Assembly (NCBI RefSeq): GCF_022538185.1
Contig: NZ_JAKYXC010000006.1
Coordinates: 124,001 to 188,000, forward strand
Source of the DNA: Microbacterium sp. CFH 31415
GTDB lineage: Bacteria > Actinomycetota > Actinomycetes > Actinomycetales > Microbacteriaceae
Direction of reading: 5' to 3'
DNA: 64,000 nt
Positions 38,973 to 58,924 of the stretch are shown here, piece after piece. Position numbers and translations under genes: made by a program. The notes below the pieces were generated by a model. It was not told the origin of the DNA and did not search any database. It was given only the letters and a program-made list of their open reading frames with translations. Positions within the stretch are counted from its first letter, which is position 1. Each line of letters begins with the position of its first letter.

Positions 38973-39736
38973 GCCTCGTCGAGATCACGAAGGTCCACAA
39001 GAGCTTCGGCGACGTGGAAGTCCTCAAGGGCGTGTCGCTGCAGGTCGAAGAAGGAGAGGTCGTCTCGCTCATCGGGCGATCGGGGTCGGGCAAGACCACC
39101 CTCCTGCGGTGCATCAACCACCTCGAGACGGTGGATGCCGGATCGATCAAGGTGGGCGGCACGGCCGTCGGGTATCGCGAGCAGCGCGACGGGTTCCACG
39201 AGCTTCCTGAGCGCCTGGTCGCCAAGAACCGGCGCCGCATCGGGATCGTCTTCCAGCATTTCAACCTGTTCCCCCACATGTCAGTACTCGAGAACGTCAC
39301 CGAGGCGCCCATCCGGGTTCTCCAGACGCCGAAGCGCGAAGCGCGCGAGCGCGGCATGGCGCTGCTGGACCGCGTGGGACTCGCCGACAAGGCGGGTCAG
39401 TACCCCGCCTCGCTCAGCGGCGGCCAGCAGCAGCGGGTCGCTATCGCGCGGGCGCTCGCCATGAAGCCGCAGCTGATGCTGTTCGACGAGCCGACCTCCG
39501 CTCTGGACCCCGAGCTCGTCGCCGAGGTCCTGGATGTGGTGCGCGACCTGGCCAACGACGGCATGACGATGATCATCGTCACCCACGAGCTCCGCTTCGC
39601 CAGCGAGGTGAGCGATCGCATCGTATTCATGCACGAGGGGTCGATCGCCGCCAGCGGAGCGCCCCGAGAACTCTTCACGAACCCGACCTGCGAGCCCCTG
39701 CGCGCCTTCCTGGCGCGGTCGGCGTTCGCGAACTGA
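38969..39736 (+). CDS. Polar amino acid ABC transporter ATPase
   Basis: This 255-residue ATPase has Walker A GRSGSGKTT near 35-43, the Q loop in GIVFQHFNLFPHMSV, signature LSGGQQQR, Walker [13 protein letters not shown] and the switch His in IIVTHELRF. It energises uptake by the permease just upstream, whose stop overlaps its ATG. All motifs are intact and length is normal for PAAT ATPases. The same module recurs at 54417. Confidence 0.95.
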   Translation: MSLVEITKVHKSFGDVEVLKGVSLQVEEGEVVSLIGRSGSGKTTLLRCINHLETVDAGSIKVGGTAVGYREQRDGFHELPERLVAKNRRRIGIVFQHFNLFPHMSVLENVTEAPIRVLQTPKREARERGMALLDRVGLADKAGQYPASLSGGQQQRVAIARALAMKPQLMLFDEPTSALDPELVAEVLDVVRDLANDGMTMIIVTHELRFASEVSDRIVFMHEGSIAASGAPRELFTNPTCEPLRAFLARSAFAN

Positions 39737-39750
39737 TGGGAGAACGCGGC

Positions 39751-41379: not shown

Positions 41380-42473
41380 TCGCCACGGCCACGGACATCA
41401 TCGACCTCGGTGTCGGCGCACCCGACATCCCCACCCCGGCCGTGGCGGCACGGGCCGCGAGGGAAGCGATCGACTCGGGGCGCACGAAGTACGCCGGGGC
41501 GCGGGGGATCCTTCCCCTCCGCGAGCGGATCGCCGAGCGCTTCTCGGTGGATAAGGGCTTCGAGGCCGCCCCGGACGACATCGTCGTCTCCGCGGGGGCG
41601 AAGCTCACGCTGTTCTGCGTGCTCGCGGCGGCCGGCGCGACCGGCGGAAACGTCGTCTACACGACACCGCACTACGGCGGCTATCCCCACCTCATCCGCC
41701 GCGCTGGGCTCGAGGGCCGCCCCGTGCAGACGAGCGCCGTGGACGGATACGCCCTCGACACCGACCGGCTGCGAGCGGCGATCGACGACGACACGGTGGC
41801 GGTCATCCTCAATTCGCCGTCGAACCCGACCGGAGCCATGTACGACGCCGCGTCGCTGGATGCGATCGTCGAAGTCGTCACCTCCTGCAGCAGCGCCCTG
41901 ATCATCAGCGACGAGATCTACTCCGCTTTTGCCTACGACGAGGACGCGATCTCCGTCGGGCGCATCGCGCCGCGCGAGCGCATGGTCGTCATCGACGGCG
42001 TCTCGAAGGCGTACGGGATGTCGGGATGGCGGGTGGGCTACGCGGCGGGCCCGCGGGCGCTGATCGCGGCAGCGGGAGCGGTCAACAGTCAACTGACGAA
42101 CTGCGCCAGCTCGATCAGCCAGCACGCCGCGGCCGCGGCGCTCACGCTGCGACCGTCCGAGTGCGCCGATGTCGACCGTCACCGGAATCTCAGGGACGAA
42201 GTGCACGCCCGGGCGAGTTCACTGTCTGGTGCGGTGTCCGTGAAGCCCAAGGGCGGCATCTACCAGAGCATCCAGCTCAACCCGGCTCAGATCGATGCGC
42301 TGACGTCGACGGGAGAGTCCGTCGCGGATGCGCTGCTGCGCCGCGGCGGCGTGCGCCTGCCCCAGGACTCCACCTTCGGAACCCCTGGTCTGCTGCGCGT
42401 GACCTTCTCGGTCCCGCGTCCGACTCTGCAGGACGGGATGTCGCGCCTTGCCCGCGTCCTCGAAGAACTCTGA
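41376..42473 (+). CDS. Class I/II PLP aminotransferase
   Basis: This 365-residue fold-type I aminotransferase has the N-terminal DLGVGAPDIPTPAVA, PSNPTG near 145, the cofactor-pairing Asp in IISDEIYSAFAYD, and the Schiff-base Lys in VIDGVSKAYGMSGWRVGYA. The C-terminal arginine stretch is GLLRVTFSVPRP. It should transfer an amino group between an amino acid of the pathway and a 2-oxo acid. The GTG start overlaps the FAD oxidoreductase stop. The M24-type gene follows after 31 bp. Substrate not identifiable from sequence. Confidence 0.88.
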   Translation: MIATATDIIDLGVGAPDIPTPAVAARAAREAIDSGRTKYAGARGILPLRERIAERFSVDKGFEAAPDDIVVSAGAKLTLFCVLAAAGATGGNVVYTTPHYGGYPHLIRRAGLEGRPVQTSAVDGYALDTDRLRAAIDDDTVAVILNSPSNPTGAMYDAASLDAIVEVVTSCSSALIISDEIYSAFAYDEDAISVGRIAPRERMVVIDGVSKAYGMSGWRVGYAAGPRALIAAAGAVNSQLTNCASSISQHAAAAALTLRPSECADVDRHRNLRDEVHARASSLSGAVSVKPKGGIYQSIQLNPAQIDALTSTGESVADALLRRGGVRLPQDSTFGTPGLLRVTFSVPRPTLQDGMSRLARVLEEL

Positions 42474-42504
42474 ATCACCGCGCCACGAAAGGGCTGACAC
42501 AAAG

Positions 42505-43683
42505 ATGTATTTCACTGAAGACGAGTATGCCGAGCGGCTCACAAAGGTCCGGGCATCGATGTCCGCTTCCGACCTCGATGTCCTCCTGGTCACTGGGCCG
42601 GAGAACATCACCTACCTGACCGGGTACACGACCCCCGGGTACCACATCTTCCAGTGCGTGATCGTTCCGATCGACGCGCCGCTGACCTTCGTCGTCCGCA
42701 ACACGGAGCGCACGAACGTACCCGACCTTCCCTGGATCGGGGAGAGCGTGCCGATCGGCGTGGCAAACCTCTCCGACCCGGCCCCCATCCTTCTCGGCGC
42801 GATCAAGGCAACCGTGGGCGGTGCGAGGCGCATCGGATTTGATTCGGCCGCGCTGTTCCTCCCCCCGAAGGTCTACCTCGCACTCGCCGCGGAGCTGGGC
42901 GACAAGCTCGTCGAAGCGCCGGGGCTGGTCGAGCAGGCGCGCAGGCTCAAGTCCCCCGATGAGATCGCGCTCATCGAGCGGGCAACGCTCCTCGCCGAAG
43001 CCGGGATCGTCTCGGGCCTCGACGCATTCGGCCACACGACGACCGACAGCGACGTCGCGTCCGCGGCACTCGCCCGCGTCGCCGAACTCGGCGGCGAGTA
43101 CACCGGTTCCCCGGCGTATATCGTTCCCGGTGTCTCTTCCCTGATCTCGCACACGACTCATGCGCAACGACCCGTGCGCGACGACGAGCCACTGCGCCTC
43201 GAGGTGTGCGCGTCGATCGGCCGCTACCACGGCGTGCTCACGCGGACGGTGACGCGCTTCGAGCCGACGGACGAGCTTCGACGCTACTTCGATCTGTCCG
43301 CCGCCGCCGGGGAGGCGATGCGCCAGGCCGCGCGCCCAGGCGCGACGATCGGCGAGGTCGACTTCGCCGGACGCTCGCTGGTCGAAGCCGAGGTGCCCGC
43401 CGAGTACTGGCCGAACCGTGGCGGCTACAGCATGGGCATCGCCTACCCGCCCGGCCTGGGTGAGGGCGACGTGCTCGACATCCGGGCCGGTGACGAAAGG
43501 CCGATCGAAGTGGGGATGGTCTTCCACATCCTTCCCACACTTCGCGTCCCGGGGCTTGCCGCTGTGGGCTGCACGGATACTTTTGCCGTGGAGGAACATG
43601 ACACACGCTTCCTCAGCACCCTGCCCCGACGCGTCCTCACATCGGCCGATGCCGCGGCACTCGATGTGACTGCAACCGTTTAG
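42505..43683 (+). CDS. M24-family creatinase/ectoine-hydrolase-like protein
   Basis: This 392-residue protein has the pita-bread fold of M24 peptidases but lacks their metal ligands. Where metal peptidases have two Asp, it reads RLEVCASIGRYHGVLTRTVT; the His and Glu ligand regions read GYSMGIAYPPGLGEGD and MVFHILPTL. This pattern is that of metal-independent relatives such as creatinase and ectoine hydrolase (DoeA/EutD), which open C-N bonds of cyclic or guanidino compounds. ATG 42505 fits the conserved start MYFTEDEYAERL. With the aminotransferase, aldehyde dehydrogenase and M20 amidohydrolase it suggests stepwise breakdown of an acylated or cyclic amino acid. Confidence 0.75.
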   Translation: MYFTEDEYAERLTKVRASMSASDLDVLLVTGPENITYLTGYTTPGYHIFQCVIVPIDAPLTFVVRNTERTNVPDLPWIGESVPIGVANLSDPAPILLGAIKATVGGARRIGFDSAALFLPPKVYLALAAELGDKLVEAPGLVEQARRLKSPDEIALIERATLLAEAGIVSGLDAFGHTTTDSDVASAALARVAELGGEYTGSPAYIVPGVSSLISHTTHAQRPVRDDEPLRLEVCASIGRYHGVLTRTVTRFEPTDELRRYFDLSAAAGEAMRQAARPGATIGEVDFAGRSLVEAEVPAEYWPNRGGYSMGIAYPPGLGEGDVLDIRAGDERPIEVGMVFHILPTLRVPGLAAVGCTDTFAVEEHDTRFLSTLPRRVLTSADAAALDVTATV

Positions 43684-43706
43684 CCCTACCACCAGCGAGG
43701 TCAATG

Positions 43707-44399
43707 ATGCTCAATGACGGCTTGATCGACATCCAGCCACTCGGGCGGGTGGAGAGCCTGGCATCCCGCGCGGCGACCACACTGCGCGAGGCGATCGTCA
43801 GCGGGGCCATCCCGACGGGCACCGACATCTCGGTGCCGCGACTCGCGCGGCTGTGCGGGGTGAGCGTCACCCCGGTCCGCGAGGCGGTCATCCATCTCGC
43901 GGAGGCCGGACTGGTAACCGTCCACGACCGCGGGGTGCGTATCACGGCCCCCACGCGTGACGCGCTCATCGCCGCGTTCGAGGTGCGCGAGGCCGTCGAG
44001 GGGATGACGGCGAGGCTCGCGGCGCAGCGGACGACGGGGCCGCTCGCCGACGACGTGCGAGAGCTCGCCCGCCGGAGCGTCGATGCCGCGCAGGGCGACG
44101 ACGTGGGCGAGTTCCGCCTGCTTGACTCGCAGTTCCACGAGGCGGTCATACGACTCGCCGCGTCACCCCAGCTCGCCCGGTATGCCCGCAACGCGCTCGA
44201 TCTGTCGCAGACGCTGCGCAACATCCGGCCCGCCCAGCAGGTCTTCCAAGCGGACTCCGCCCACCGGCACATCGAGGTCGCCGATGCCATTGCGCGCGGC
44301 GACGCGGACGCCGCGGAGGAGTTCATGCGCCTGCACGTCCGCGAGGTGCTCGCTCACATGCTCGACACGATGACGGGCGAGGACGGTGAAAGCCGGTGA
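43707..44399 (+). CDS. GntR-family regulator (FCD domain)
   Basis: This regulator of about 230 residues has an N-terminal winged helix (ISVPRLARLCGVSVTPVREA to AGLVTVHDRGVRI) and an FCD domain with FRLLDSQFHEAVIRLAA and SAHRHIEVADAIARGD, where Asp and His residues usually bind metal and effector. GAGG precedes it; spacing favours ATG 43707 over the adjacent ATG 43704. Its stop overlaps the aldehyde dehydrogenase start (GTGA). As the only regulator in the island it probably controls the cluster in response to the substrate or a product. Confidence 0.87.
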   Translation: MLNDGLIDIQPLGRVESLASRAATTLREAIVSGAIPTGTDISVPRLARLCGVSVTPVREAVIHLAEAGLVTVHDRGVRITAPTRDALIAAFEVREAVEGMTARLAAQRTTGPLADDVRELARRSVDAAQGDDVGEFRLLDSQFHEAVIRLAASPQLARYARNALDLSQTLRNIRPAQQVFQADSAHRHIEVADAIARGDADAAEEFMRLHVREVLAHMLDTMTGEDGESR

Positions 44400-45844
44400 G
44401 CGTCAGCGAGATGACGCAGGTGCGGGACGTGCGGCACTTCGTCGGCGGCGCGTGGATCGATCGCGAGTCGACGGAGTCCCGGACCAACCCGGCGGATCCG
44501 ACCGACCTCGTCTCGCGCGCGCCCGACGCCGACCGCGGAGTGGTGGCGGAGGCGGTCGAGGCCGCGCAGGAGGCCACGCACCCGTGGGGCGCGCTGTCTG
44601 CGCAGGAACGAGGAGCTGTCGTCGCCGAGGCTGCCAGGATCCTGGACGGCAGAGCGGCCGAGATCGCGCAGCTGCTGACGCGGGAGGAGGGCAAGACACT
44701 CGCCGAGGCTGCGGGGGAAGTCGACCGCGCCGTGCGGATGCTGACGTTCTACGCCGCCCAGGCGTGGCATCCGCTCGGTGCCACCCTGCCGTCTGCCGAC
44801 GGGCGCACTCACCTGTACACCACGCGGGTGCCGGTCGGAGTGGTCGGCCTGATCACGCCGTGGAACTTCCCCGTTGCGATCCCGGTGTGGAAGCTGGCAC
44901 CTGCGCTCGTCGCGGGTAACTCCGTGGTCCTCAAGCCGTCGTCGTATGTCCCGGCCACCACCCAGGCGCTCCTGGAGTGCTTCGTCGAGGCGGGCATTCC
45001 CGCCGGAGTCCTGAACGTCGTCTACGGATCGGGATCCCGAGCAGGACAGGCGCTGGTCGACGACGAGCGCGTCGCCGCACTCAGCTTCACCGGCTCCAGT
45101 GGGGTGGGGCGCGGCATCAATCTGGCCGCCGCCGCCCGCATGGCCCGAGTGCAGCTGGAGATGGGGGGGAAGAACGCGATGGTCGTGCTGCCCGACGCCG
45201 ACCCCGCTGCGGCCGCGGACCTCTGCGTGCGGGGCGCCTTCGGTCTGACCGGACAGGCGTGCACGGCCACCAGCCGCGTGATCGTTCTACGCGGGGACGA
45301 GCACCGTCTCCTGGACGCACTGGTCGCCCGCACGGCTGAGATCGTCACAGGCGACCCGCTCGATCCCCGAACCACGATGGGACCCGTCGTCACCGATCGG
45401 CAGCTCGCCACCGACGTCGGCTACGTGGACCAGGCGCTCGCTGCGGGCGCGGAGCTCGTGGCCGGCGGAACGGCCGAGGGGCTCTTCCTCGAGCCGACGA
45501 TCCTCCGTAACGTCCATCGCGACAGCGCCATCGCCAACGAGGAGGTCTTCGGTCCCGTGCTCAGCGTCCTCGTCGCCGATTCGCGCGAGGATGCGGTGAA
45601 CCTGCTCAACAGCACAGAGTACGGGCTCACGGCCGGCGTGGTGACGAACGACGTCGAGAGCGCGATGTCGTTCGCGCGGGACGCCGACGCCGGCGTGATC
45701 AAGATCAACCGGCAGACCCCGGGCACCGACGTCAACGCGCCGTTCGGTGGCAACAGATCATCTTCCAACGGGCTCTTCCGTGAGCAGGGCCTGACCGCGA
45801 CCGAGTTCTTCACCCGAGTGAAGACCGTCTACCTCGGGTACTGA
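44396..45844 (+). CDS. Aldehyde dehydrogenase, semialdehyde type
   Basis: This 482-residue aldehyde dehydrogenase has the catalytic Glu in LEMGGKNAMVVLPDAD and the Cys in TGQACTATSRVIVLRG, the cofactor motif TPWNFPVAIPVWKLAPALVA and late EEVFGPVLSVLV. The Asn/Gly-rich end (PFGGNRSSSNGLFREQG) resembles 2-oxoglutarate-semialdehyde and succinate-semialdehyde dehydrogenases. It would oxidise a semialdehyde formed in the island pathway, for example the aminotransferase product. The GTG start overlaps the GntR stop, so they are co-translated. Confidence 0.9.
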   Translation: MSVSEMTQVRDVRHFVGGAWIDRESTESRTNPADPTDLVSRAPDADRGVVAEAVEAAQEATHPWGALSAQERGAVVAEAARILDGRAAEIAQLLTREEGKTLAEAAGEVDRAVRMLTFYAAQAWHPLGATLPSADGRTHLYTTRVPVGVVGLITPWNFPVAIPVWKLAPALVAGNSVVLKPSSYVPATTQALLECFVEAGIPAGVLNVVYGSGSRAGQALVDDERVAALSFTGSSGVGRGINLAAAARMARVQLEMGGKNAMVVLPDADPAAAADLCVRGAFGLTGQACTATSRVIVLRGDEHRLLDALVARTAEIVTGDPLDPRTTMGPVVTDRQLATDVGYVDQALAAGAELVAGGTAEGLFLEPTILRNVHRDSAIANEEVFGPVLSVLVADSREDAVNLLNSTEYGLTAGVVTNDVESAMSFARDADAGVIKINRQTPGTDVNAPFGGNRSSSNGLFREQGLTATEFFTRVKTVYLGY

Positions 45845-45877
45845 GAGACCCACCCCATTTAGAGGAGCAGTGAGCAC

Positions 45878-46483
45878 ATGATCGCCATCGATGAATACGC
45901 GGAGGGCCTCGCCAGCGTGCGGGCGCGGAGGTTCGTGGTCCACGTGGACGAGGTCCTCGAGGAGGGCGGGGTTGCCGCGCCGCAGCCTCTTCGGCGCGCC
46001 GTCGCTGCCGCCGTGATCCGGAACCCCTGGGCGGGCCAGGGATACGTCGACGACCTCTGGGACGAGATGAACCGGGTGGGCCGCGTCTTGAGCGAGATCC
46101 TCGCCGGCCGCCTGATCGACGTCTTCGGTGGTGAGGAGGGGATCCACGGATTCGGCAAGGGCGCGATCGTCGGGATCAATGGCGAGATCGAGCACGCGTC
46201 GGGCATCCTGCACGGCCCCGCCTTCGGGCCGAACTTCCGCCGCCTGGTCGACGGCACCGCGGGGATCAGCGCCGCCGAGCGACGGGGCGCTGCGGGGACG
46301 AGCATCGCGATCCCGACGAATCACAAGACGGACCGGGCGATCCGCAACTACTACCAGTCCGTCGAGTTCGTGGTTCCCGACGCGCCTCACGCCGACGAGA
46401 TGGTCATCGCCTTCGCCGCCACGGGCGGTCCGCGCGTGCATGCTCGCGTCGGTGATCTGACGACGGATCACCTCCGCGCGTAG
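45878..46483 (+). CDS. DUF1185 (amino acid synthesis family) protein
   Basis: This 201-residue protein matches the DUF1185/AA_synth family (PF06684): VHVDEVLEEGGVAAPQPLRR, NPWAGQGYVDDLWDEMNRVG, HGFGKGAIVGINGEIEHASG and the C-terminal DEMVIAFAATGGPRVHARVG. Members are often next to amidohydrolases and oxidoreductases of catabolic clusters; the biochemical role is not established to my knowledge. AGAGGAG precedes the ATG. The M20 hydrolase follows after 9 bp, so the two are co-transcribed. Confidence 0.85.
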   Translation: MIAIDEYAEGLASVRARRFVVHVDEVLEEGGVAAPQPLRRAVAAAVIRNPWAGQGYVDDLWDEMNRVGRVLSEILAGRLIDVFGGEEGIHGFGKGAIVGINGEIEHASGILHGPAFGPNFRRLVDGTAGISAAERRGAAGTSIAIPTNHKTDRAIRNYYQSVEFVVPDAPHADEMVIAFAATGGPRVHARVGDLTTDHLRA

Positions 46484-46492
46484 GGGCCCGGC

Positions 46493-47809
46493 GTGGAATC
46501 GCTGCACTCATCGGCACCGCCGTCGATGCTCCCGGTCTTCGAGCGCTTCGACGCGATGTGGGCTGGGCTGGAGCCGATCGGGCGGGACGACACGACCGGC
46601 GGGTACCGGCGTTACGCCTGGACCGAGGACGAGCTGCACTGCCGCGAATGGTTCCGAGCCCAGGCTCGGGTCCGCGGTCTGCGGATGGAGACGGACGGCA
46701 ACGGCAACATGTGGGCATGGTGGGGCGATACCGCGCGGGGCCGTGCCGTGGTCATGGGATCGCACCTCGACTCGGTGCCCGACGGGGGCGCCTTCGACGG
46801 GCCGCTGGGCGTCGTCTCGGCGTTCAGCGCCGTCGATGCGATGCGGGAACGAGGGATCGTGCCGCGCCGACCGGTGGCCATCGTCGCGTTCGCCGACGAG
46901 GAGGGTGCGCGGTTCGGAGTCGCCTGCGCGGGATCTCGCCTGCTCACAGGCGAACTCGGTCGCGACCGGGCGCTGGCGCTGACGGACAGGAGCGGGGTGA
47001 CGATGGAGGAAGCCATGCGGTCGGCCGGGCATGATCCCTCGCGGGTCGGTCCCGACCGGGCTCGGCTCAGCTCGATCGCCGCCTTCATCGAGTTGCACGT
47101 CGAACAGGGACGTGTGCCTGTCGTCACCGAGACCGGAGCCGTCGTGAACGGTCTTCACGGCTGCTCAGCGGCGGTCGGAACAGCATCCGCCATCCTGCCC
47201 CACGGACGCTGGCGGTTCGACCTGATCGGCAGAGCCGACCATGCGGGTACCACGGCGCTCGCCGATCGCGACGACCCCATGCTCCGACTGGCTCGTCTGA
47301 TCCAGGCTGCGCGCGAATCCGCCGAGCGGGTGGGTGCGGTGGCCACCGTTGGACGCGTCGACGTTCAGCCGAACGGGGTCAATGCGATCCCGTCGTTGGT
47401 GCGTGCCTGGCTCGACGTCCGCGGACCCGATGAAGCGCTGGTGCGCCGCGTGGTGTCAGAGGCGGAGGTCGCGACTGGGTCGGCAGCAGCCGAGGAATCG
47501 TGGACCCCCAGCGTCGTCTTCGACGAGGCGCTTCGCGACCGCGTCGAGCAGATCCTCGTCCGTCGATTCGGTGGGGGCCCGACGCTCTCGACTGCAGCGG
47601 GACATGACGCCGGCATCCTGTCGAACGCGGGCGTACCGACGGCAATGCTGTTCGTGCGGAACCACGACGGCACATCTCATTCGCCCCACGAGTTCGTCGA
47701 GCCGATGGATCGCCACAGCGGCGTTGCAGCACTGGCCGATGTGATCAGCGACCTGTCGACGTCCGAAGATGTCGGAAGCTCGATCGACAGGCCGCTGAGT
47801 ATCCGATGA
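46493..47809 (+). CDS. M20-family Zn amidohydrolase (AllC/HyuC/carbamoylase-like)
   Basis: This 438-residue protein belongs to the hydantoinase/carbamoylase branch of M20. Metal ligands lie in VMGSHLDSVPDGGAFDG (His, Asp), AFADEEGARFG (Glu), FIELHVEQG (His) and the C-terminal SHSPHEFVEP (His). TAAGHDAGIL is another family signature. Relatives split N-carbamoyl amino acids, allantoate or N-acyl amino acids. Here it could remove an acyl or carbamoyl group from a pathway intermediate. GTG 46493 follows the DUF1185 gene by 9 bp. It is the last recognisable gene of the island cluster. Confidence 0.88.
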   Translation: MESLHSSAPPSMLPVFERFDAMWAGLEPIGRDDTTGGYRRYAWTEDELHCREWFRAQARVRGLRMETDGNGNMWAWWGDTARGRAVVMGSHLDSVPDGGAFDGPLGVVSAFSAVDAMRERGIVPRRPVAIVAFADEEGARFGVACAGSRLLTGELGRDRALALTDRSGVTMEEAMRSAGHDPSRVGPDRARLSSIAAFIELHVEQGRVPVVTETGAVVNGLHGCSAAVGTASAILPHGRWRFDLIGRADHAGTTALADRDDPMLRLARLIQAARESAERVGAVATVGRVDVQPNGVNAIPSLVRAWLDVRGPDEALVRRVVSEAEVATGSAAAEESWTPSVVFDEALRDRVEQILVRRFGGGPTLSTAAGHDAGILSNAGVPTAMLFVRNHDGTSHSPHEFVEPMDRHSGVAALADVISDLSTSEDVGSSIDRPLSIR

Positions 47810-49336
47810 CTCGACTCAGCCGCGGTCCGCGCCGATCGGCGCGCCGTCGCTCGACACCGCCGCACGCTTCCCGTTCCGCCGACGCCGTCTGGTCCCCCAA
47901 CCGGTGCCGGCGGCTGGCCGTTGAGGCCAAGAGAGTAGAAACACGCAATGCCCGCGATCAGGCCGACCGCCTGCCCCACGAGCGCCTTCTTCGAGCGGGC
48001 TGATTCGTTCTCGGCGATTCGAAGGAGAACATGACCGTGGGGGCCCGGCGCTTGGTAGCAGCCAGGTTGCTTGAGCACAAGCCTGACGGTTCCAGCTAGG
48101 GCGAGCGCGACGACCCTACCCGGCCGCGCCGGCGGGTTTGCGGCAGCCGCGTGCCCGGGCGGGCGATCATCGTGCGACCAATAGTGCGCGGACGCGCAGC
48201 GACGACGCTCATCGGTGGACTCAGCCAATCGCGACGTGGACCTCACTCCTGAACATGAGCGCACCGGCGAGACCGGCTCCGGCAAGAAGCGAGGCGACCC
48301 CGGCGACGATCGCTGTGAGCCGCAGCCTCGGCGAGGCCGCTCGGTGCGCGCGCTCCTAAACGCTTCCGAAGGCTCCCATCGCGTGGCGTCCGTCGCAAAT
48401 TCCGAACTAACGGTTCGGATAGAACCGCCGCTCGCGGACTCGGAGTACATGAACGATATCGAAAGAGAGTGATGCCCATGGGAGGACTCGAAAACACTGC
48501 AGCGCTCAGGTGACCGCGTCTTGCGCATTCCTTGCGGAAACGTTCAGCGTCACAGTTTGTCCCCCGAATGGGGGACAGCTACCGTAGTCGATGGAGGCGC
48601 CGTGAGGGGCACTGGGGAGATCTGGGGATCTTCGCCCCCACCCGCGACCACACTGGGGAAACACCAATCCGACGGGCACGCTCGGGGCTGGGGGCAGCCC
48701 CTCGGGCCGGACTCAAACCAACCGAGCGGCCCGAGGGGACCGGACTGATTCGCGACGCCGGGCCTGTGGGGACAGGCCCGGCTCAGGCCCCGCTGGGGAC
48801 AGGGCTAACCATATGCGGCCGCTGGGGACGGCCATGGCGACGCGAACGTCAGTCTTACCCTACGGTTCACGCCCTGCCGATGGCATCAATGCAGTAGATG
48901 AACGATTAACCCTCTGATCAGCCCAAACGCGTTCACTTGTTGCAGATGGGCGTGAAGGCGCCCCCCTTGTGGCTGGGAAAGGTGCACCGACCAGCGCAAG
49001 GGGGCGGAACCTGCGCGTCGGGCCCCCAGGCTTGCAGGGCGGCAGGTCCGGCGGCGACGCGCGATCGCATGCCCGGGACTATACGTGCGCGACTTGTAGT
49101 ACTTCTTGGGCGGAGGAGACGGACCGGCTGATGGATCCAGCTGGCTCCCGAAGCCGCCACCCATCCACTCGACGGCGAGCCGCGTTGTGCGACGGGATTC
49201 GTTCCCGGTCGAGGTGAGAACACTCGTGGGAACAATCTGTCGGCATTTGATGAGCATTCTGGATGCCTCTGAGAACTCGGACGGCCGTATTTCCGCGGTT
49301 CCGTCACTCAAGGATGGTCCTGTGATCTCCGCTCGA
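47810..49336. other. Gene-free right arm of the island
   Basis: No credible gene is seen in these 1.5 kb. On the minus strand, short pieces such as LTAIVAGVASLLAGAGLAGA and KKALVGQAVGLIAGIACFYS look like membrane helices but are split by stops, so they may be relics of a membrane-protein gene. The middle holds a 20-bp palindrome with TGGGGA boxes. The right end leads into attR. Confidence 0.5.
48558..48835. promoter_or_regulatory. Second TGGGGA box array with palindrome
   Basis: TGTCCCCCGAATGGGGGACA (48558-48577) differs from the palindrome at 7974 only in the middle bases. Downstream lie ACTGGGGAGATCTGGGGATC, ACTGGGGAAACACC, GGCTGGGGGCAGCCCC, CTGTGGGGACAGG, GCTGGGGACAGGG and GCTGGGGACGG. 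No start codon with a convincing gene follows. Confidence 0.5.
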
Positions 49337-49364
49337 TGGGTTCAAATCCCACCGTCACCGCCAC
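49337..49364. other. attR: 28-bp copy of tRNA-Ser 3' end
   Basis: This segment repeats 33404-33431 exactly, from the T arm to the CCA and one further C. Only the tRNA 3' third is present here, so it is not a tRNA gene. It marks the right junction of the first island and probably the left junction of a second. Confidence 0.9.
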
Positions 49365-49369
49365 GAAAG

Positions 49370-49410
49370 GGACCTCGAGATCCGCAATTTTCTGCGGAGA
49401 ATCGAGGTCC
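49370..49410 (+). terminator. Terminator after attR
   Basis: GGACCTCGA (49370-49378) pairs with TCGAGGTCC (49402-49410), with an inner TCCGCA/TGCGGA stem, then TTCTCATTT. It sits where a tRNA terminator would lie before the first island entered, or was brought in by the second element. Confidence 0.75.
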
Positions 49411-49426
49411 TTCTCATTTGGCGGGG

Positions 49427-49640
49427 TCACGCTGCCAACGAGGTGCTGACACTCCGGGCTGCGCGAGCGTGATCGAGCGCCTCGGCAACGGCGTCTGGAT
49501 CGTCACCGAAGAGATCGCCGAAGACTCGAGCGTCATCGCGGCGGACGCATGCCCGAGTATCCGTTGGGCCGCCTTCGGTCATGAGTTCCCGTCGGCTCGA
49601 CGTCGCTGGCCTCGAGCGGAGTGAGTGAGCCGCGCCACCC
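49427..49640 (-). pseudogene. Second integrase remnant, frameshifted
   Basis: Minus-strand bases 49575-49528 encode KAAQRILGHASAAMTL, matching VQRMLGHASAAMTL of the integrase at 33538. The downstream part (VFGDLFGDDPDAVAEALDHA, ending at the TGA at 49427) is in another frame, so at least one frameshift lies near 49530, exactly where the nucleophile Tyr should be. A stop lies in frame just upstream. The left part of the gene is unrecognisable; my 49640 end is approximate. Position and direction relative to the att copy are the same as for the first integrase. Confidence 0.75.
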
Positions 49641-49760
49641 GGGCGAGCGGGCGGGGCCAGGACATCATCGTGCACCACGGAATCCGAATTGCGAACAATC
49701 GTGCGACATGCGAACCTGGCTGTGAGCGGGGCATCGGAAGCCCATGAACAGGAGGCCTGC
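49641..49760. other. Upstream region of second cargo cluster
   Basis: No gene is seen. The region leads from the integrase remnant to the DUF3225 gene and probably holds its promoter; AGGAGG at 49750-49755 is the ribosome binding site. Confidence 0.5.
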
Positions 49761-50216
49761 GTGGTCCAACCGGCGTTCCAGGTGATCGATGAATCGGACA
49801 CCTCATCCTTCGGCGCCGATCAGCGTGCCATTTGGCACGAGCAGAAGGCCATCTACACGGCCTTCCTCGCCGGCGACCGGGCGCGCATCGATCGTCACAT
49901 CCACCCCGACGCCACCATCTGGGACGCCGTCACCGAGCGCATCGCGCGAGGGCTCGGCGAACTCGATGCGATCCGCGCCACCCGCCCCGCCGGCGACGCG
50001 CAGCCGGTCACGACCCGAGTCGAGGTCGACGACCCGATCATCGACGTCTCGGGCGACCTCGCCGTCGGGCGGCATCTGCTGCGCGTCGAGGAGCACGGCC
50101 CCGAAGGCGGCGTGCGTCAGCTCATGCGCGTCAGCCAGGGCTGGCGCCGCATCGACGGCGTCTGGCACATCATCCACTCCCACGAAGACCTGTTCTCGGT
50201 CGAGCCGCTCGCCTGA
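49761..50216 (+). CDS. DUF3225 / AtzH-like NTF2-fold protein
   Basis: This 151-residue protein has the pattern of the DUF3225/AtzH family: YTAFLAGDRARIDRHIHPDA, TIWDAVTERIARGLGELDAI and a C-terminal WHIIHSHEDLF. The fold is NTF2/SnoaL-like. AtzH is reported to hydrolyse an amide intermediate of cyanuric acid breakdown; most relatives are uncharacterised and sit in amidase or oxidase clusters. I chose GTG 49761 because AGGAGG is five bases upstream; the frame from 49689 is longer but has no such site. The M24 gene follows after 30 bp. A paralogue is at 61226. Confidence 0.75.
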   Translation: MVQPAFQVIDESDTSSFGADQRAIWHEQKAIYTAFLAGDRARIDRHIHPDATIWDAVTERIARGLGELDAIRATRPAGDAQPVTTRVEVDDPIIDVSGDLAVGRHLLRVEEHGPEGGVRQLMRVSQGWRRIDGVWHIIHSHEDLFSVEPLA

Positions 50217-50246
50217 GCGGCCGGCCCCCTCTAGAAAGGACCCCCC

Positions 50247-51455
50247 TTGGCCATCGACTACGTCTCGCGCCGCGCTCGTCTCGATGAGCGGCTGGATGCC
50301 GCGGGCATCGACGTGCTGTTCCTCCCGGCATCCCAGACCGACCTCGAGTACTTCACCGGTCTCGAGCGCGGCGTGCCGTCCTTCGGCAACATCGGCTACA
50401 CGAACCACTGGATCTCGGGCGCGTTCTTCTCGCCCGGCAAGGAGCCGCTGTTCGTGCTCACCCGCCACCACCAGGAGTTCCACCTTCCGGGCGGTGTCGC
50501 GGGCGACATCGTCACGGCGACCGAGTCCGACGACGGCGCCGAGGTCTTCCGCCGCGCCTTCGACGCGTTCAAAGCCCGCCCGCGCCACGTCGCGGTCGCC
50601 GGTGCGCCGAGCGACGAGTCATGTGTGCACGAGTCGGGCGCGAAGGAGCGCATCGCGGTCAGCGGACGCACCTGGGCCGAGACGACCCTCCAGCTGCGTG
50701 AGCACCGCCCCGATGCCGAGTTCAGCGTGGCCGACGGTATCCTCAACGGCATCCGTCGCATCAAGGACGCCCACGAGATCGAGCTCATGACCGAGGCCTC
50801 GCGCATGGTCGACCAGGTGATGGCTGCGGTGAGCGACAAAGTGGTCGCGGGCATCACCGAACTCGAGCTGGCGTCCGAGATCGACCTGCGCATCCGTCAG
50901 CTGGGCTCGCCCTCCTCGTCGTTCGATACCGCGGTGTGGGCTATGGGCAAGGGGATCGAGCGCGACGCGAGCGAGCGGCTGTCGCGCAAGGCGCTGCCCG
51001 ATCGTGCGGGCGTGAACTTCGACTTCGGTGCGATCGTCGAGGGGTACTGCTCGGACTTCGGGCGCACCGTGCACATCGGGCAGCCTGATGAGGAGTACGA
51101 GCGCGTGTACGACATCGTCATGGCGGCGCAGGAGGCCGGTCGCAAGGCGGCCGTTCCGGGCGCGACCGGCGGAGACGTCCACCGCGCCACGCGCGCCGTG
51201 ATCGAGGAGGCGGGTTACGGGGACTGGTTCCGCCACCGCACGGGTCACAACATCGGCAAGGACGTGCACGAGCTGCCCTACATCTCAGAGGAGGACGAGA
51301 CGCCTCTCGAGCCGGGGATGATGTTCACGATCGAGCCGAGCGTGTTCTGGCCGGGTCGCGTCGGAGTTCGAGTCGAGGATGTCTTCCTGCTGACCGACAG
51401 CGGCGAGACGGTGAAGATCAACGAGCTCGACAACGACATGCGGGTGAACGACTGA
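50247..51455 (+). CDS. M24-family Xaa-Pro-type metallopeptidase
   Basis: This 402-residue protein has creatinase-like N-terminal and pita-bread C-terminal domains. Unlike the island's M24 protein it keeps the metal ligands: two Asp in NFDFGAIVEGYCSDFGRTVH, His in HRTGHNIGKDVHEL, Glu in MFTIEPSVFW and Glu in GVRVEDVFLL. Such enzymes cleave bonds next to proline or related imino acids. The start is TTG 50247 with AAAGGA upstream; no ATG or GTG fits better. Release of an imino acid for the oxidases further on is a reasonable inference. A strong terminator follows. Confidence 0.88.
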   Translation: MAIDYVSRRARLDERLDAAGIDVLFLPASQTDLEYFTGLERGVPSFGNIGYTNHWISGAFFSPGKEPLFVLTRHHQEFHLPGGVAGDIVTATESDDGAEVFRRAFDAFKARPRHVAVAGAPSDESCVHESGAKERIAVSGRTWAETTLQLREHRPDAEFSVADGILNGIRRIKDAHEIELMTEASRMVDQVMAAVSDKVVAGITELELASEIDLRIRQLGSPSSSFDTAVWAMGKGIERDASERLSRKALPDRAGVNFDFGAIVEGYCSDFGRTVHIGQPDEEYERVYDIVMAAQEAGRKAAVPGATGGDVHRATRAVIEEAGYGDWFRHRTGHNIGKDVHELPYISEEDETPLEPGMMFTIEPSVFWPGRVGVRVEDVFLLTDSGETVKINELDNDMRVND

Positions 51456-51476
51456 CCGCAGCATCCGGCTGTTCGG

Positions 51477-51509
51477 CCTGGCCCCCTTCGCACGAGCGAG
51501 GGGGCCAGG
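51477..51509 (+). terminator. Terminator after M24 peptidase gene
   Basis: CCTGGCCCCCTTCGC pairs with GCGAGGGGGCCAGG with one bulged T and an ACGA loop, followed by TCTCGTTT. It separates the DUF3225/M24 unit from the transporter operon. Confidence 0.85.
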
Positions 51510-51550
51510 TCTCGTTTGGGACTCGACTGGTGTTCGGGCGCGAGAAATGG

Positions 51551-51596
51551 TTGACAACGTTCGGACGCATAGTGAACACTCGTGCGTAGAACGAAC
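51551..51596. promoter_or_regulatory. Promoter and IclR-type operator candidate before transporter operon
   Basis: TTGACA (51551-51556) may be a -35 element. Overlapping it is a symmetric arrangement GTTCG-g-ACGCA ... TGCGT-AGAA-CGAAC. The central minus-strand bases 51578-51566 read TGTTCACTATGCG, close to motifs at 57152 and 60101. Binding by the IclR protein at 55401 is inference. Confidence 0.45.
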
Positions 51597-51676
51597 ACAG
51601 CAGGCGTGAAGAAGCGCGGGGGATGCCGCCCCCGAGGTCCCCTGATCACGCCCATCGACCCGAAGGAGCAGTCCCG

Positions 51677-52615
51677 ATGAAAACCACTGCATCGAGCCGG
51701 ATTCTCGTCGGCCTCGCGGCCTGCACTGCACTGGGCCTCGCGCTCGCCGGCTGCGCGGGCGACTCCGGAGGCGGCGACGACGCCGGCTCCGGTGGCAGCG
51801 TCGAAGTCGCCGGCGTCACCATCCAGAAGAACGACGAACTCGCCGCGATGGTTCCCGACGACGTCGCCGAGCGCGGCACGCTGACGGCCATCCAGTTCGA
51901 CAACGCCCCCGCCGACACCTTCGTGGGCGAGGACGACCAGATCACCGGGTGGGGCCCCGACCTCGGCCGCGCCGTCGCCGGCCTCCTCGGACTCGAGTAC
52001 ACCGCGGAGGTCTCGGGCGCATTCGACACGTTCATCCCCGGCATCGAGAACGGCCGCTTCGACAGCTCGTGGGCATCGATCATCGTCACGCAGGAGCGCC
52101 TCGACGTCGTCGACATCGTCGCGGTCCACGAGAGCACCACCGGCGTCATCACCAAGGAGGACGCGGGGCTCGACATCAGCACCCCCGAAGACCTCTGCGG
52201 CCTCCGGGTCGGAGCGCTCGCGGGCTCGGCGTTCCTCATCCAGCTCGACGAGATCATCGCCACCTGCGAAGACGCCGGTGAGGATGCCCCGACCGTCGAC
52301 TCGTTCCCCCAGCAGGGTGCTGCACTGCTCGCGGTGAGCTCCGACCGCATCGACGCCTTCATGACCGCGAAGGGTCAGCTCTCGTGGCTCGTCCGTGAGG
52401 ACAGCAGCGCCGAGGGGCTCGAGATCCAGCCGCTCGACTACCAGCCCAACCTCGAGGGCGTCGCCGTCGGCAAGGACTCGGGTCTGACCGAGGTGATCGC
52501 CGCCGCCATGAACCAGCTCATCGAAGACGGCTCATACGAGCAGATCATGGGCTACTGGGACATCGACTTCGGTCTGCTCGACGAAGCCGTCGTGAACCCC
52601 GACGTCGCCCAGTGA
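51677..52615 (+). CDS. Polar amino acid ABC transporter, substrate-binding lipoprotein
   Basis: This 312-residue family-3 binding protein has a lipoprotein signal ending LALAGC (Cys near 25) and a Gly/Ser/Asp-rich linker. The body starts DDVAERGTLTAIQFDNAPAD and has GWGPDLGRAVAGLLGLEYTA and MNQLIEDGSYEQIMGYWDID. Two Cys (LCGLRVG, ATCEDAG) match the disulfide pair of the island paralogue at 35674. GAAGGAG precedes the ATG. It heads a four-gene operon with the SDR-like gene, permease and ATPase. Ligand unknown. Confidence 0.92.
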   Translation: MKTTASSRILVGLAACTALGLALAGCAGDSGGGDDAGSGGSVEVAGVTIQKNDELAAMVPDDVAERGTLTAIQFDNAPADTFVGEDDQITGWGPDLGRAVAGLLGLEYTAEVSGAFDTFIPGIENGRFDSSWASIIVTQERLDVVDIVAVHESTTGVITKEDAGLDISTPEDLCGLRVGALAGSAFLIQLDEIIATCEDAGEDAPTVDSFPQQGAALLAVSSDRIDAFMTAKGQLSWLVREDSSAEGLEIQPLDYQPNLEGVAVGKDSGLTEVIAAAMNQLIEDGSYEQIMGYWDIDFGLLDEAVVNPDVAQ

Positions 52616-52637
52616 CCGTCCGATCCTGAACGGCGAC

Positions 52638-53432
52638 ATGCACACCGCACGCCCCGTACGGGCACGCAGCATCTGCCTCGACGGCCGCACCGCGCTCGTC
52701 CTGGGCGCGGTCGGGGAACTGGGCCGCGCCGCGGCGACGGCACTCGCGTCCCTCGGCGCCCGTGTGGTCGTCGCGGACGACGACCACACGGCGCTCGAGG
52801 GCGAATACGGCGGGGATGAGCGCTTCGATGTTCCCTCGGCGACCACCTCCTCCGCCGGGGGACTCGAAGCCCTCGCCGCCGAGCTCCCCGAGATCGACGT
52901 GCTTATCCATCGTCCGCTCGACGCTCACGGCGCATCGGAGACCGGGCAGGCGGAGTCCGGGTTGGAAGCGATCCGGCACTTCGTGCCCGCAATGACGAGG
53001 CGCCGGCGCGGATCGATCATCACCCTGACGTGCTCGACCACGACACGTCCGGCGGGTGCCCGCGGGCTCACGGCCTCGCCGGCGGGACGCGACCTCCACC
53101 AGGTGGTGCGCGGACTCGCGAGCGAGCTGCGGCCCTTCGGCGTGCGTGTGAACGCGGTCGAACCTCACGGGATCGAACCCACGGCGGCCGTCGCATTCCT
53201 GGCCTCGGACTCGTCCGCCCACGTCACCGGCGCGGTCCTGGCCGTGGAGAGCGGGTGGTCGGCGCTGAACAACCTCGACGAGCGGCGCGCCACCACCGCG
53301 TCGCTGCATCCGCTGGGCGCTCGGCTCGCCGTCGACGCGCGAGCACGGGGCGCGCGGCTGGCTGCTCTGCCGCTGCCGGAGTACGACACCGACACGATGA
53401 ATGAGGAAGCCTATGAGCGACGGCGCGCCTGA
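52638..53432 (+). CDS. Degenerate SDR-fold protein
   Basis: This 264-residue protein has the Rossmann fold of short-chain dehydrogenases (ALVLGAVGELGRAAATALAS; later HVTGAVLAVESGWSAL) but lacks the catalytic YxxxK: the position reads LTASPAGRDLHQVV. The usual NAG motif reads HRP. It is therefore unlikely to be a normal oxidoreductase and may bind a cofactor or have another role. It lies between the binding protein and the permease, overlapping the permease start, so it is translated with the transporter. It is distinct from the intact SDR at 56283. Confidence 0.7.
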   Translation: MHTARPVRARSICLDGRTALVLGAVGELGRAAATALASLGARVVVADDDHTALEGEYGGDERFDVPSATTSSAGGLEALAAELPEIDVLIHRPLDAHGASETGQAESGLEAIRHFVPAMTRRRRGSIITLTCSTTTRPAGARGLTASPAGRDLHQVVRGLASELRPFGVRVNAVEPHGIEPTAAVAFLASDSSAHVTGAVLAVESGWSALNNLDERRATTASLHPLGARLAVDARARGARLAALPLPEYDTDTMNEEAYERRRA

Positions 53433-54420
53433 GGATCGCCCGGGCCGCGGTCCGCTGACCACGACGCTGCAGATCGGCCGCGAACCAACGGGGCCGCGCG
53501 TGCGTCACAACAGCGGACGGCGTCTCGCGGCGAAGATCGGCGGCTGGGTCCTGCGGATCCTGGTCGTGCTTATCGTGCTCGAGATCGTCTCGAAGTTCCT
53601 CACCGCCGACGCGATGCGGTGGGATGTCGTCGCCGAGTACCTGTTCAGCCCCAAGGTGCTGCAGGGTGTCGGCCTGACGCTCATCCTCACCGTTGTCGCG
53701 ATGATCCTCGGCTGCCTGATCGGCCTGGTGCTCGCCCTGATGAAGATCTCGAACAGCCTGCTGTTCAACGTCGCCGCCGATGGCTACATCTGGATCTTCC
53801 GCGGCACCCCGCTGCTGGTCCAGCTGCTCTTCTGGTACAACCTCGCGAGCTTCCTTCCCAAGCTGACCCTCGGCATCCCGTTCGGCCCGCAGTGGCTCGA
53901 GTTCGACACCAACACGGTGATCACGTCGCTCGTCGCGGCACTGCTCGGACTGGGCCTCAACGAGGGCGCCTACATGTCCGAGATCATCCGTGCCGGCATC
54001 CAGTCGGTCGATCAGGGGCAGAGCGAAGCGGCCGCCGCGCTCGGGATGTCGCGCCGCCGCGCGATGCGCCGGATCGTGCTGCCGCAGGCCATGCGCGTCA
54101 TCGTGCCGCCGACCGGCAACCAGGTGATCTCGATGCTCAAGGGCACGAGCCTCGTCAGCATCGTCGCGATCAGCGAGCTCCTCTATACGGTGCAGGTGAT
54201 CTACGCGCGCACGTTCGAGACGATCCCGCTGCTCGTGGTCGCCTGCATCTGGTATCTCGTCCTCACCACCGTGCTGTCGATCGGCCAGCACTACATCGAG
54301 CGCTATTACGCACGCGGTGCGACCCGGAGCGCACCTGACACGTACGCCACGAAGCTGCGCAAGCTGATGGGGCGCACCACGCCGATCACCTTCGAGGCGA
54401 AAGAGCAGGATCGCGTATGA
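53413..54420 (+). CDS. Polar amino acid ABC transporter permease
   Basis: This 335-residue permease has a long N-terminal cytoplasmic tail (about 45 residues) and about five membrane helices, the first near [15 protein letters not shown] region. Conserved stretches are [36 protein letters not shown] and the EAA loop [20 protein letters not shown]. It is a paralogue of the permease at 38070. I chose ATG 53413 because GAGGA is 5-6 bases upstream; ATG 53401 is the alternative. It overlaps the upstream SDR-like gene and ends in ATGA with the ATPase. Confidence 0.92.
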
Positions 54421-55214
54421 CCACGCTTGCCGAGCCCATCGTCCGCATCCAGTCGGTGAGCAAGAACTTCGGCCCGCTGGAGGTGCTCCACGGTGTCGAC
54501 CTCGAGGTGTTCCGCGGCGAGGTCGTGTGCGTCATCGGCCCCTCGGGGTCGGGCAAGTCGACGCTCCTGCGCTGCATAAACCACCTCGAGGCCCCCAGTG
54601 CCGGCGTCGTCTGGCTGGACGGCGAGACCATCGGCGTGCGCGAGAGTCGTGGGCAGCTGGTCGAGGTGCCCCCGGCGGAACTCGCCCGGCAGCGCACCGA
54701 GATCGGGATGGTGTTCCAGAGCTTCAACCTGTTCGGTCACATGACGGTGCTGGAGAACATCATCGAGGCGCCCACCCAGGTGCTGGGCACGCCCAGGGCG
54801 GAGGCCGAGACCCACGCGAGGCAGCTGCTGGAGTGGGTGCGGCTCGAAGGCAAAGAGTCGACCTACCCCCGCCAGTTGTCGGGCGGTCAGCAGCAGCGAG
54901 CGGCGATCGCACGCGCGCTCGCGATGCGACCGCGGGTGATGCTGTTCGACGAGCCCACATCGGCCCTCGATCCCGAGACGGTGGGCGAGGTGCTCTCGGT
55001 CATGCGACGTCTCGCGTCCGAGGGGCTGACGATGATCGTCGTGACGCACGAGATCGAGTTCGCCCGCGAGGTCGCCGACCGTGTGGTGTTCATGGACGAC
55101 GGCCGCATCGTCGAGATGGGCACGCCGGAACAGGTTCTCGACTCGCCGCGCGAGGATCGCACGCAGAGATTCCTCTCGCGCATCCTCAACACACGCGCCG
55201 ACGTCGATGAGTGA
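54417..55214 (+). CDS. Polar amino acid ABC transporter ATPase
   Basis: This 265-residue ATPase has Walker [11 protein letters not shown] loop [15 protein letters not shown], signature LSGGQQQR, Walker [13 protein letters not shown] and switch His in IVVTHEIEF. It starts within the permease stop (ATGA). All motifs are intact. It ends the transporter operon, and an 11-bp-stem hairpin follows. It is paralogous to the ATPase at 38969. Confidence 0.95.
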
Positions 55215-55220
55215 CCGGGC

Positions 55221-55259
55221 CGCCGCTCTGACCAGTCCTGTGCTCTGATCAGAGCGGCG
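55221..55259 (+). terminator. Terminator after transporter operon
   Basis: CGCCGCTCTGA pairs perfectly over 11 bp with TCAGAGCGGCG around a 17-base loop, 6 bp after the ATPase stop. Confidence 0.8.
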
Positions 55260-55400
55260 CGCCCTTCTTCCGCCCACGCAGCGCGTCACGAGCGGAGAGC
55301 CGGTGCCGAGCGGAGGGCCAGAGCGGGCGAAAGGATCCTCCCCCCGCGAATCATCCTCCGCCCGTCACGCGGGGCGACGTCGGCAGACCCGTGCCGCGAG

Positions 55401-56198
55401 TCATCGCTGCGCGCTGAGAAGCGCGATGTCGGAGCTGATCTGCGCGGTGGTCTCGAGGAGCGGCGGCAGGCAGTTCTCGATGAGCTCCTCGACGCTGACT
55501 CGCGATGTCGAGACGGTGACGTTGACGGCGCTGATGTAGGCGCCGGTGCGGGTGTCGACGACAGGCGCGGCGATCGACCGGGCGCCGAGGTCGAGCTCCT
55601 GGTTGTTCAGCGCCCAACCCTGCTCGCGCACCTGAGCGATGCGTTCACGCAGCTCCTGCTCGTCGGTGACGGTCTGCGGGGTGAACTTCTCGCGCGGGTA
55701 CTTGGCGAAGAATGCGTCGAGCTCGTCGGGGCTCATCGCCGACAGCAGCACGCGGCCCGTCGAGGTGCAGAAGGCGGGGATGCGGCGGCCGATGCTCACC
55801 CGCAGGGGCATGACGGACTCGGCGGCGGCGCGGGCGACGTAGACGATGTCGCCGTCGTCGTACTCGCATGCCGAGCACGACTCGCCCAGGCGGGTGGACA
55901 GTCTGCGCAGGTGGTCCTGGGTGGTGTCGACGCTCGATGACGACGAGAGGAACGCGTAGCCGAGATCGAGCACGCGCGGCCGCAGGTAGAAGCGGTTCTG
56001 CTGCATGCCGACGTAGCCGAGAGCCTCGAGGGTCAGCAGCGACCGCCGCGCCGAGGCGCGGCTGAGCCCGGCGATGCGCGCGACGTCGGCGAGGGTGAGC
56101 ATGGTGCGCTCGTCGGAGAAAGCCCGGATGACCGCGAGTCCTCGCGAAAGCGACTGAACGAATTCGCCCGAGGGTTGCCGGGGTTCGTCGGCATTCAT
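55401..56198 (-). CDS. IclR-family regulator (PcaR-like)
   Basis: This 265-residue regulator has an N-terminal winged helix (FVQSLSRGLAVIRAFS, then LADVARIAGLSRASARRSLL) and an IclR effector domain (ARAAAESVMPLRVSIGRRIP, CTSTGRVLLSAMSPDE). It is most like the PcaR/PobR branch, which binds 15-bp sites of the GTTCG...CGAAC type. Such a site lies at 57172-57186. It follows the SDR gene on the same strand by 84 bp and sits between the transporter and oxidase units, so it probably controls both. The natural effector is unknown. Confidence 0.9.
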   Translation of the reverse strand: MNADEPRQPSGEFVQSLSRGLAVIRAFSDERTMLTLADVARIAGLSRASARRSLLTLEALGYVGMQQNRFYLRPRVLDLGYAFLSSSSSVDTTQDHLRRLSTRLGESCSACEYDDGDIVYVARAAAESVMPLRVSIGRRIPAFCTSTGRVLLSAMSPDELDAFFAKYPREKFTPQTVTDEQELRERIAQVREQGWALNNQELDLGARSIAAPVVDTRTGAYISAVNVTVSTSRVSVEELIENCLPPLLETTAQISSDIALLSAQR

Positions 56199-56282
56199 GT
56201 CGTGCTCCCTCGGCGAAGATGCGGCGTTGCGGGTCGTCTCACCTTACTGATGGGCGCGCGCAGGTCCACACATCGACACAGG

Positions 56283-57089
56283 TCAGCGGATGTAGGACGC
56301 CCCGTTCACGTCGATCGTCGCACCGGTGAGGTGCCGCGTCCGGCCGCTCGCGAGCAGGGCGACGAGCTCGGCGATCTCGCTCGGGGGAACCATCTCGCGC
56401 ATGGTGAGCGTGTCGAGGAATGCCTGGCGCCCGCCGCGGTCCTCGCCCGCCGACGCCGACATCTGGGTGTCGACGACGCCCGGGGCGATGAGGTAGGCGA
56501 GCACGCCCTGGGTCGCGAAGGACCGGGCGACGGTCTTGATCGCGGCCGCGGTGGCCGCCTTCGACGCCGAGTAGCCGACGAGGTTGGCGTTGCCGGCGCC
56601 GCGCTGTGCGGCCCAGCTGCTGAGCCCGACGATCGATCCGCCGCCGTGATCGACGAAGTGCGCGACCGCACGGCGGATGAGGGTGAGCTGACTGCGCGTG
56701 TTCACCTGCAGGGCGAGGTCGAGCGCGGCATCCCATTCCTCGTCGGACGCGTCGAAGTCGACCTTGGGCATGACCGCGGCATTGAGCACCGCGACATCGA
56801 TGCGCCCCGCCCAGGCCGTGGCGTCGGACCAGAGCGTCGATGCGCCGTCCGCCTGCGAGAGGTCGGCCCGCACAAGGTGGGCCGTGCCCTCGGGGTAGCT
56901 CGAGATCGCGGCGCGGGCGCCGTCGGCGTTCGAGTTGTGGTGAGCGACGACCCGTGCTCCCGTGTTCGCGAGGCGTTCGACGATGGCGCGGCCGATGCCG
57001 GCGGACGCTCCGGTCACGAGCACCGTCCGGCCCGAGAGCTCGCCTGACGAGGCAGCCGCTCCTGTGAGCGAGGCGGGTGCAGAATCCAT
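56283..57089 (-). CDS. SDR-family oxidoreductase
   Basis: This 268-residue short-chain dehydrogenase has TGASAGIGRA near 30, NAAVMP, the catalytic Ser in GLSSWAAQRGAG and the YSASKAA active site, and ends GATIDVNGASYIR. All catalytic residues are present. ATG 57089 has GGAGGT upstream; the longer frame to 57287 would overlap the divergent gene. It diverges from the fused dehydrogenase gene over 113 bp with a GTTCG palindrome, and precedes the IclR gene. It probably reduces or oxidises an intermediate of the same pathway. Confidence 0.88.
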   Translation of the reverse strand: MDSAPASLTGAAASSGELSGRTVLVTGASAGIGRAIVERLANTGARVVAHHNSNADGARAAISSYPEGTAHLVRADLSQADGASTLWSDATAWAGRIDVAVLNAAVMPKVDFDASDEEWDAALDLALQVNTRSQLTLIRRAVAHFVDHGGGSIVGLSSWAAQRGAGNANLVGYSASKAATAAAIKTVARSFATQGVLAYLIAPGVVDTQMSASAGEDRGGRQAFLDTLTMREMVPPSEIAELVALLASGRTRHLTGATIDVNGASYIR

Positions 57090-57171
57090 GTGAGACCTCC
57101 GTCGGTCGTGGCGCGACAAAGCTGCGCGACGGTGACCAGCATACGGGGTAGTGTTCGTCATGCGACAAAAA

Positions 57172-57186
57172 GTTCGTACCGCGAAC
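57172..57186. promoter_or_regulatory. PcaR-type palindrome GTTCG-N5-CGAAC
   Basis: GTTCGTACCGCGAAC is a perfect 15-bp palindrome about 16 bp before the start of the dehydrogenase gene and in the divergent gap with the SDR. TGTTCGTCATGCG (57152-57164) is next to it. The spacing and sequence type are those known for PcaR-like IclR regulators, and one is encoded nearby. Confidence 0.55.
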
Positions 57187-57202
57187 GCTTCGAGGAGTTT
57201 GC

Positions 57203-58915: not shown

Positions 58916-58924
58916 CCGACCCGA

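Follow-up and report, generated by a model that had tools for sequence, protein, structure and literature searches.

A decayed integrase remnant at the junction of two att-bounded islands, very probably in tandem at tRNA-Ser(CGA), in Microbacterium sp. CFH 31415

Two att-bounded islands very probably stand in tandem at the 3' end of the tRNA-Ser(CGA) gene of Microbacterium sp. CFH 31415, an older one at 49.4–118.9 kb and a younger one next to the tRNA. Observed at the site are three att copies, the remnant of an integrase, a state without the younger island in M. gallinarum, and a common right end. The window is the whole stretch of 64,000 bases that was analyzed (C11:124001–188000), from a genome of 3.46 Mb in 21 contigs; positions above 64000 carry the window numbering along the rest of contig C11 (296,777 bases). 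On this reading the features are as follows.

33340–33430, plus strand: tRNA-Ser (CGA), the integration target (ARAGORN)
33404–33431, plus strand: att copy 1, the tRNA 3' end and left end of the younger island (exact 28-bp core)
33432–49336, no strand assigned: younger island, transport and catabolic genes (without counterpart here in M. gallinarum; Pfam)
33437–33475, plus strand: terminator-like hairpin behind att copy 1 (fold −33 kcal/mol, z −6.5)
33538–33939, minus strand: tyrosine integrase of the younger island, C-terminal portion, truncated by an IS (PF00589, 47.8 bits)
33940–35281, plus strand: IS3-like element with HTH_Tnp_1 and rve transposase ORFs and 25-bp inverted ends (Pfam; ends by eye)
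49337–49364, plus strand: att copy 2, the boundary common to both islands (exact 28-bp core)
49365–49415, plus strand: terminator-like hairpin behind att copy 2 (fold −32.1 kcal/mol, z −5.7)
49433–49576, minus strand: decayed integrase 3' end, frameshifted, with a Phe codon at the presumed catalytic Tyr and cut off upstream (translation, alignments, blastn)
49577–49715, no strand assigned: junction sequence between the integrase scar and the older-island body (blastn)
49716–64000, no strand assigned: older-island body, continuing past the window to the third att copy at 118948–118965 (M. gallinarum homology; third att copy)

The 28-bp att core, TGGGTTCAAATCCCACCGTCACCGCCAC, is found exactly at 33404–33431 and 49337–49364, and no further match to it was found in the genome with up to three mismatches allowed; a 26-base version gave one additional match, on C15 with two mismatches, which is probably the end of another tRNA. 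The tRNA-Ser(CGA) gene was matched in all 38 genomes searched, this one included. The earlier note had set a third att copy beyond 64 kb as a test, and a probe of 18 bases from the right end of the core located one on the plus strand (C11:242948–242965), 69.6 kb right of att copy 2. It is identical at 17 of the last 18 core bases (one mismatch) and, counting the start of the hairpin, at 35 of 37 bases to the first copy, an identity reached in none of 200 shuffles of the 20-kb locus. Att repeats, all on the plus strand, hence mark both outer ends and the junction (33404, 49337 and 118948), as tandem islands require. The cluster at 49.4–64 kb, which the earlier note took for a probable older island, keeps that standing through the third copy and through M. 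gallinarum, but its extent had to be revised, as it runs beyond the window to 118.9 kb. Genes for M24 peptidases and for solute-uptake ABC transporters occur in both islands (33432–49336 and 49716–64000); the older one has, in addition, genes for sarcosine-oxidase-like subunits and, to the right of the window, GcvP-like genes of glycine cleavage.

M. gallinarum Sa1CUA4 (L083) matches the left side to 22476 and then the tRNA-Ser (33300–33430, 96% over 131 bp), which is followed by 482 bp and then by homology from 49780. The older block is present at this site and 33.4–49.3 kb is not, the arrangement of a relative with one island. From this layout, the older block probably predates the split from M. 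gallinarum, and the 33.4–49.3 kb island stands at the site only here; the proposal that the first island arrived later, at the regenerated tRNA end, is supported by a genome that shows the state without it. Homology extends over 49780–114191 at 88–93% identity with gaps, the largest of about 1.9 kb at 102.6–104.6 kb. An att copy matching at 18 of 18 bases lies at C6:1473295, in the place homologous to the third copy here, and the permease gene past it matches at 96% over the remaining 323 bp of the contig, which stops 485 bp past that copy. From the tRNA to the right att copy, the block measures 67.8 kb in M. gallinarum and 69.6 kb here. Adjoining the third att copy, a 4.7-kb segment (114109–118788; L068) is inverted relative to M. 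gallinarum, with 80% identity. On the other side, a stretch of about 10.8 kb left of the tRNA (22477–33299), which holds a 2339-aa frame matching DUF6603, is absent from M. gallinarum, in which 22476 joins the tRNA within 18 bp.

Right behind the second exact core copy stands the integrase remnant. When 49365–49700 is translated on the minus strand, one frame reads KAAQRILGHASAAMTL and a second one VFGDLFGDDPDAVAEALDHARAA, and alignment with the first integrase (KAVQRMLGHASAAMTLDTYADLFDDDLDAGATALSQAR) reveals 80 of 114 columns identical, with a single frame break. Tyrosine recombinases (PF00589) carry the C-terminal motif LGH(A/S)S..T...Y; the stub contains LGHASAAMTL, its frame is interrupted, it lacks the catalytic boxes further upstream, and the codon at what is presumably the catalytic Tyr is TTC (Phe), where the first integrase has TAC. 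A chance origin of the stub was ruled out by alignment scores far above those of base shuffles (a local alignment scored 45, the best of 200 shuffles 18; a second alignment scored 111, the best of 100 shuffles 51) and by blastn, which among the fetched loci matched 15 distinct places outside the stub with E values as low as 4e-22; of these, 14 are integrase genes and the fifteenth is in G047. All 15 matches stop at remnant position 202–213 (49566–49577), a sharp edge such as a deletion would leave, so that about 144 integrase bases survive. The alignment, the shuffles and the blastn matches uphold the frameshifted remnant that the earlier note described past the second att copy, in the same place and direction relative to its copy as the first integrase; of the extent given there (49365–49640), 49433–49576 stood, whereas 49577–49640 is not recognisably integrase. 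Among the fetched loci, 49577–49780 matches only copies of this same place.

Over 180 aligned bases, the stub and a truncated integrase behind the tRNA-Ser of G338 are 75% identical; the figure is 73% over 141 bases for the first integrase and 73–75% for the integrases of several other species. As the first integrase is no closer to the stub than those of other species are, the stub was not copied from it recently. We lean, by a little, towards the stub having once been part of the older island. It lies at the left edge of the block, and the earlier note had implied the same attribution, which is weakened by M. gallinarum, where an unrelated 482 bp occupies this place. Compared with 49365–49780, this flank scored 45 against a shuffle maximum of 49, which is no signal; with the comparison extended to 49830, the score was 54 against 44, a weak likeness starting at about 49716. 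No integrase stub was found at the left edge in M. gallinarum, and the hairpin there differs from that behind att copy 2. Since its flank is without detectable likeness to 49365–49780, M. gallinarum is not a simple pre-insertion ancestor: either it would have lost the stub, or the stub would derive from a third element.

The stub might instead be the last trace of a third element, inserted into the tRNA after the first event and before the second and since lost; this is a tentative possibility that we take to be the smaller chance. The deletion would have started inside the integrase of that element, removed its right end and taken some of the older island's left edge with it. The stubless left edge and different hairpin of M. 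gallinarum agree with such a history, as do the identities of 73% to the first integrase and 73–75% to several of other species; against it, one extra insertion is required, and stub loss in M. gallinarum would also account for the difference. A 31-bp motif bears on the same question. In M. gallinarum it occurs at L083:9354–9384 and 11319–11349, upstream of two older-island genes; here it is found as a single copy, at 51566–51596. In both genomes the motif (30/31) lies upstream of a solute-binding-protein gene, and the copy that M. gallinarum has upstream of the first gene of the block is missing from the junction here. Its absence points to a probable deletion on this lineage, which fits the loss of a third element. 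The motif is perhaps the operator of the island's IclR-type regulator (55401–56198).

The older island, by whichever route its left edge arose, is not a general possession of the genus. Its first 2 kb were matched in 10 of 366 genus genomes (E ≤ 1e-20, this one included), in five of which the match was limited to the peptidase gene, and the block is patchy on that account. M. rhizomatis (G174) has much of it 14 kb right of its tRNA-Ser, with different genes at the block ends; one core copy was found in that genome and no right core copy, and the sequence upstream of its block gave no signal against 49577–49780 (score 26, shuffle maximum 32). The older gene block may therefore not always move as a single att-bounded unit. 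That 49.8–118.9 kb is ordinary chromosome with an accidental att match at its right end is very unlikely in our view: large parts of the block do occur in order in M. rhizomatis with no right core copy, and parts also occur in G302, but the third att copy, on the same strand and with an identity beyond all shuffles, recurs at 18 of 18 bases at the matching place in M. gallinarum, and the block, judged by its first 2 kb, is patchy in the genus. Weakest of all, and scarcely credible, is an origin of the stub as a duplicate of the end of the first integrase made together with the att copy, for which family, orientation and place would speak, but which is disfavored by an identity of only 70–73%, as with other species' integrases, and by the different hairpins behind att copies 1 and 2.

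The flanks of the site in other genomes were also compared. An ABC permease gene ends 35 bp past the third att copy; in Pfam it gave weak matches to the MacB, LolCE and ADOP models, all below cut-offs, and it was matched in 112 of 366 genomes. In G122 the gene lies 8.2 kb right of the tRNA-Ser, in the orientation seen here, with no core-like sequence (up to four mismatches) between the two. It was tried as a genus-wide right neighbor and rejected, being near the core in just one (G122) of the 10 genomes in which both were located; in four they are at least 45 kb apart on the same contig and in five on separate contigs. The native chromosomal right flank is uncertain for this reason. The right flanks of the tRNA in 22 same-genus relatives, tried as empty sites, proved to be occupied differently in each, and their similarity to this genome was restricted to tRNA-proximal, integrase and scattered transporter-gene sequence. 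G012, whose left flank marks it as another close relative, has two att copies enclosing 15.7 kb of different sequence, and at the DNA level the 29.6 kb right of its tRNA resemble the older block just in short transporter stretches.

The integrase of the younger island is dead too. Its open frame covers PF00589 positions 111–169 and runs into the IS3-like element that truncates it; a target duplication around this element was not obvious, and the 392 bp beyond it match only themselves among the fetched loci. That an integrase drove the crossover at the core, the succession in which the events took place and the ownership of the stub are what we infer. A first element, now at 49.4–118.9 kb, would have entered the tRNA gene, giving att copies at both ends, and would then have lost its integrase, with 49433–49576 as the integrase 3' stub at the left edge of the older block. 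A second element (33.4–49.3 kb) would next have entered the regenerated tRNA end and displaced the first, and a later IS3-like insertion would have broken its integrase.

Both core copies in the window are followed by a terminator-like hairpin, and folding was compared over 75 att flanks from 40 genomes, a hand-picked, non-random set. The 60 bases behind the core folded unusually well (z < −3, 40 shuffles each) in 63 of the 75 flanks and in 2 of 216 controls taken further along; the flanks that passed comprise 34 of 39 labeled tRNA and 29 of 34 labeled non-tRNA, one of the latter (G022) being a tRNA truncated at the end of its contig. The flanks of the third att copy here and of the right copy in M. 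gallinarum fail this threshold. Several distinct sequences make up the hairpins, which may act for the tRNA as well as for the convergent integrase, the ending of transcripts being predicted from their folds. Elements entering tRNA-Ser might generally bring their own hairpin, placed right after the core, renewing the stop signal with each insertion, so that stacking would be unlimited and tRNA transcription kept out of the islands; we give this idea an even chance. The portions of the literature consulted held nothing direct on terminators behind att sites.

Across the genus, a 25-bp core (up to one mismatch) was matched in 354 of 366 congeneric genomes, this one included. Same-strand copies number at least two in 98 of the 366 and at least three in 21, with a maximum of six (G111), although a few copies may be ends of other tRNA genes; G111, G104, G040 and G216 are examples of repeated copies, on the same contig among the matches listed. 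A tblastn search with the integrase C-terminus matched 16 of the 75 att flanks (E ≤ 0.01), one of them (G019) on the opposite strand and probably spurious. Five matches stand behind non-tRNA copies: the stub here, one each in G061 and G047, and two in G111. The arrangement recurs, since secondary att copies in those three other genomes are followed by four same-family integrase matches in the orientation seen here, one of them, in G111, 35 aa long at 51% identity.

The processes proposed here have precedents. The text of PMC5704250, as far as consulted, describes how an element integrates, how it decays until an att-bounded remainder lacking the integrase is left, and how a newcomer then enters at whichever att site holds the end of the target gene; it cites Pavlovic 2004 for the CIME or tandem accretion model. 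The same succession is proposed for tRNA-Ser, and the older block displays the integrase loss of a CIME: none of the seven PF00589 matches in the genome (E ≤ 0.001) falls within 49.4–118.9 kb, and the stub is frameshifted and without the Tyr codon. The elements treated in that part of the paper are ICEs and IMEs. In the part of PMC3146451 consulted, the Dehalococcoides ssrA islands lie in tandem behind one RNA gene, bounded by short repeats of its 3' end and, as here, carrying reverse-strand integration genes at their left edge; they use a serine recombinase and a 20-bp tmRNA repeat, in contrast to the tyrosine recombinase and tRNA-Ser of Microbacterium. Also actinobacterial, and also in tandem at one tRNA gene, are the AICEs at Frankia tRNA-Lys and Streptomyces avermitilis tRNA-Arg described in the sections consulted of PMC3218068; these are conjugative, and excision has been demonstrated for the pair in Frankia, whereas both integrases are broken here. 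Our literature search turned up a paper on Propionibacterium and no report of Microbacterium tRNA-Ser islands. Integration, decay and accretion are already known, and the case is an ordinary but well documented one, with no new mechanism.

What the site records is the addition of about 86 kb beside a single tRNA gene in at least two steps, the genes sampled being mostly for transport and metabolism, with the state without the younger island preserved in M. gallinarum. With multiple same-strand cores in more than a quarter of the congeneric genomes searched, the genus offers a natural series in which the accumulation of islands, their decay and their loss of mobility can be followed.
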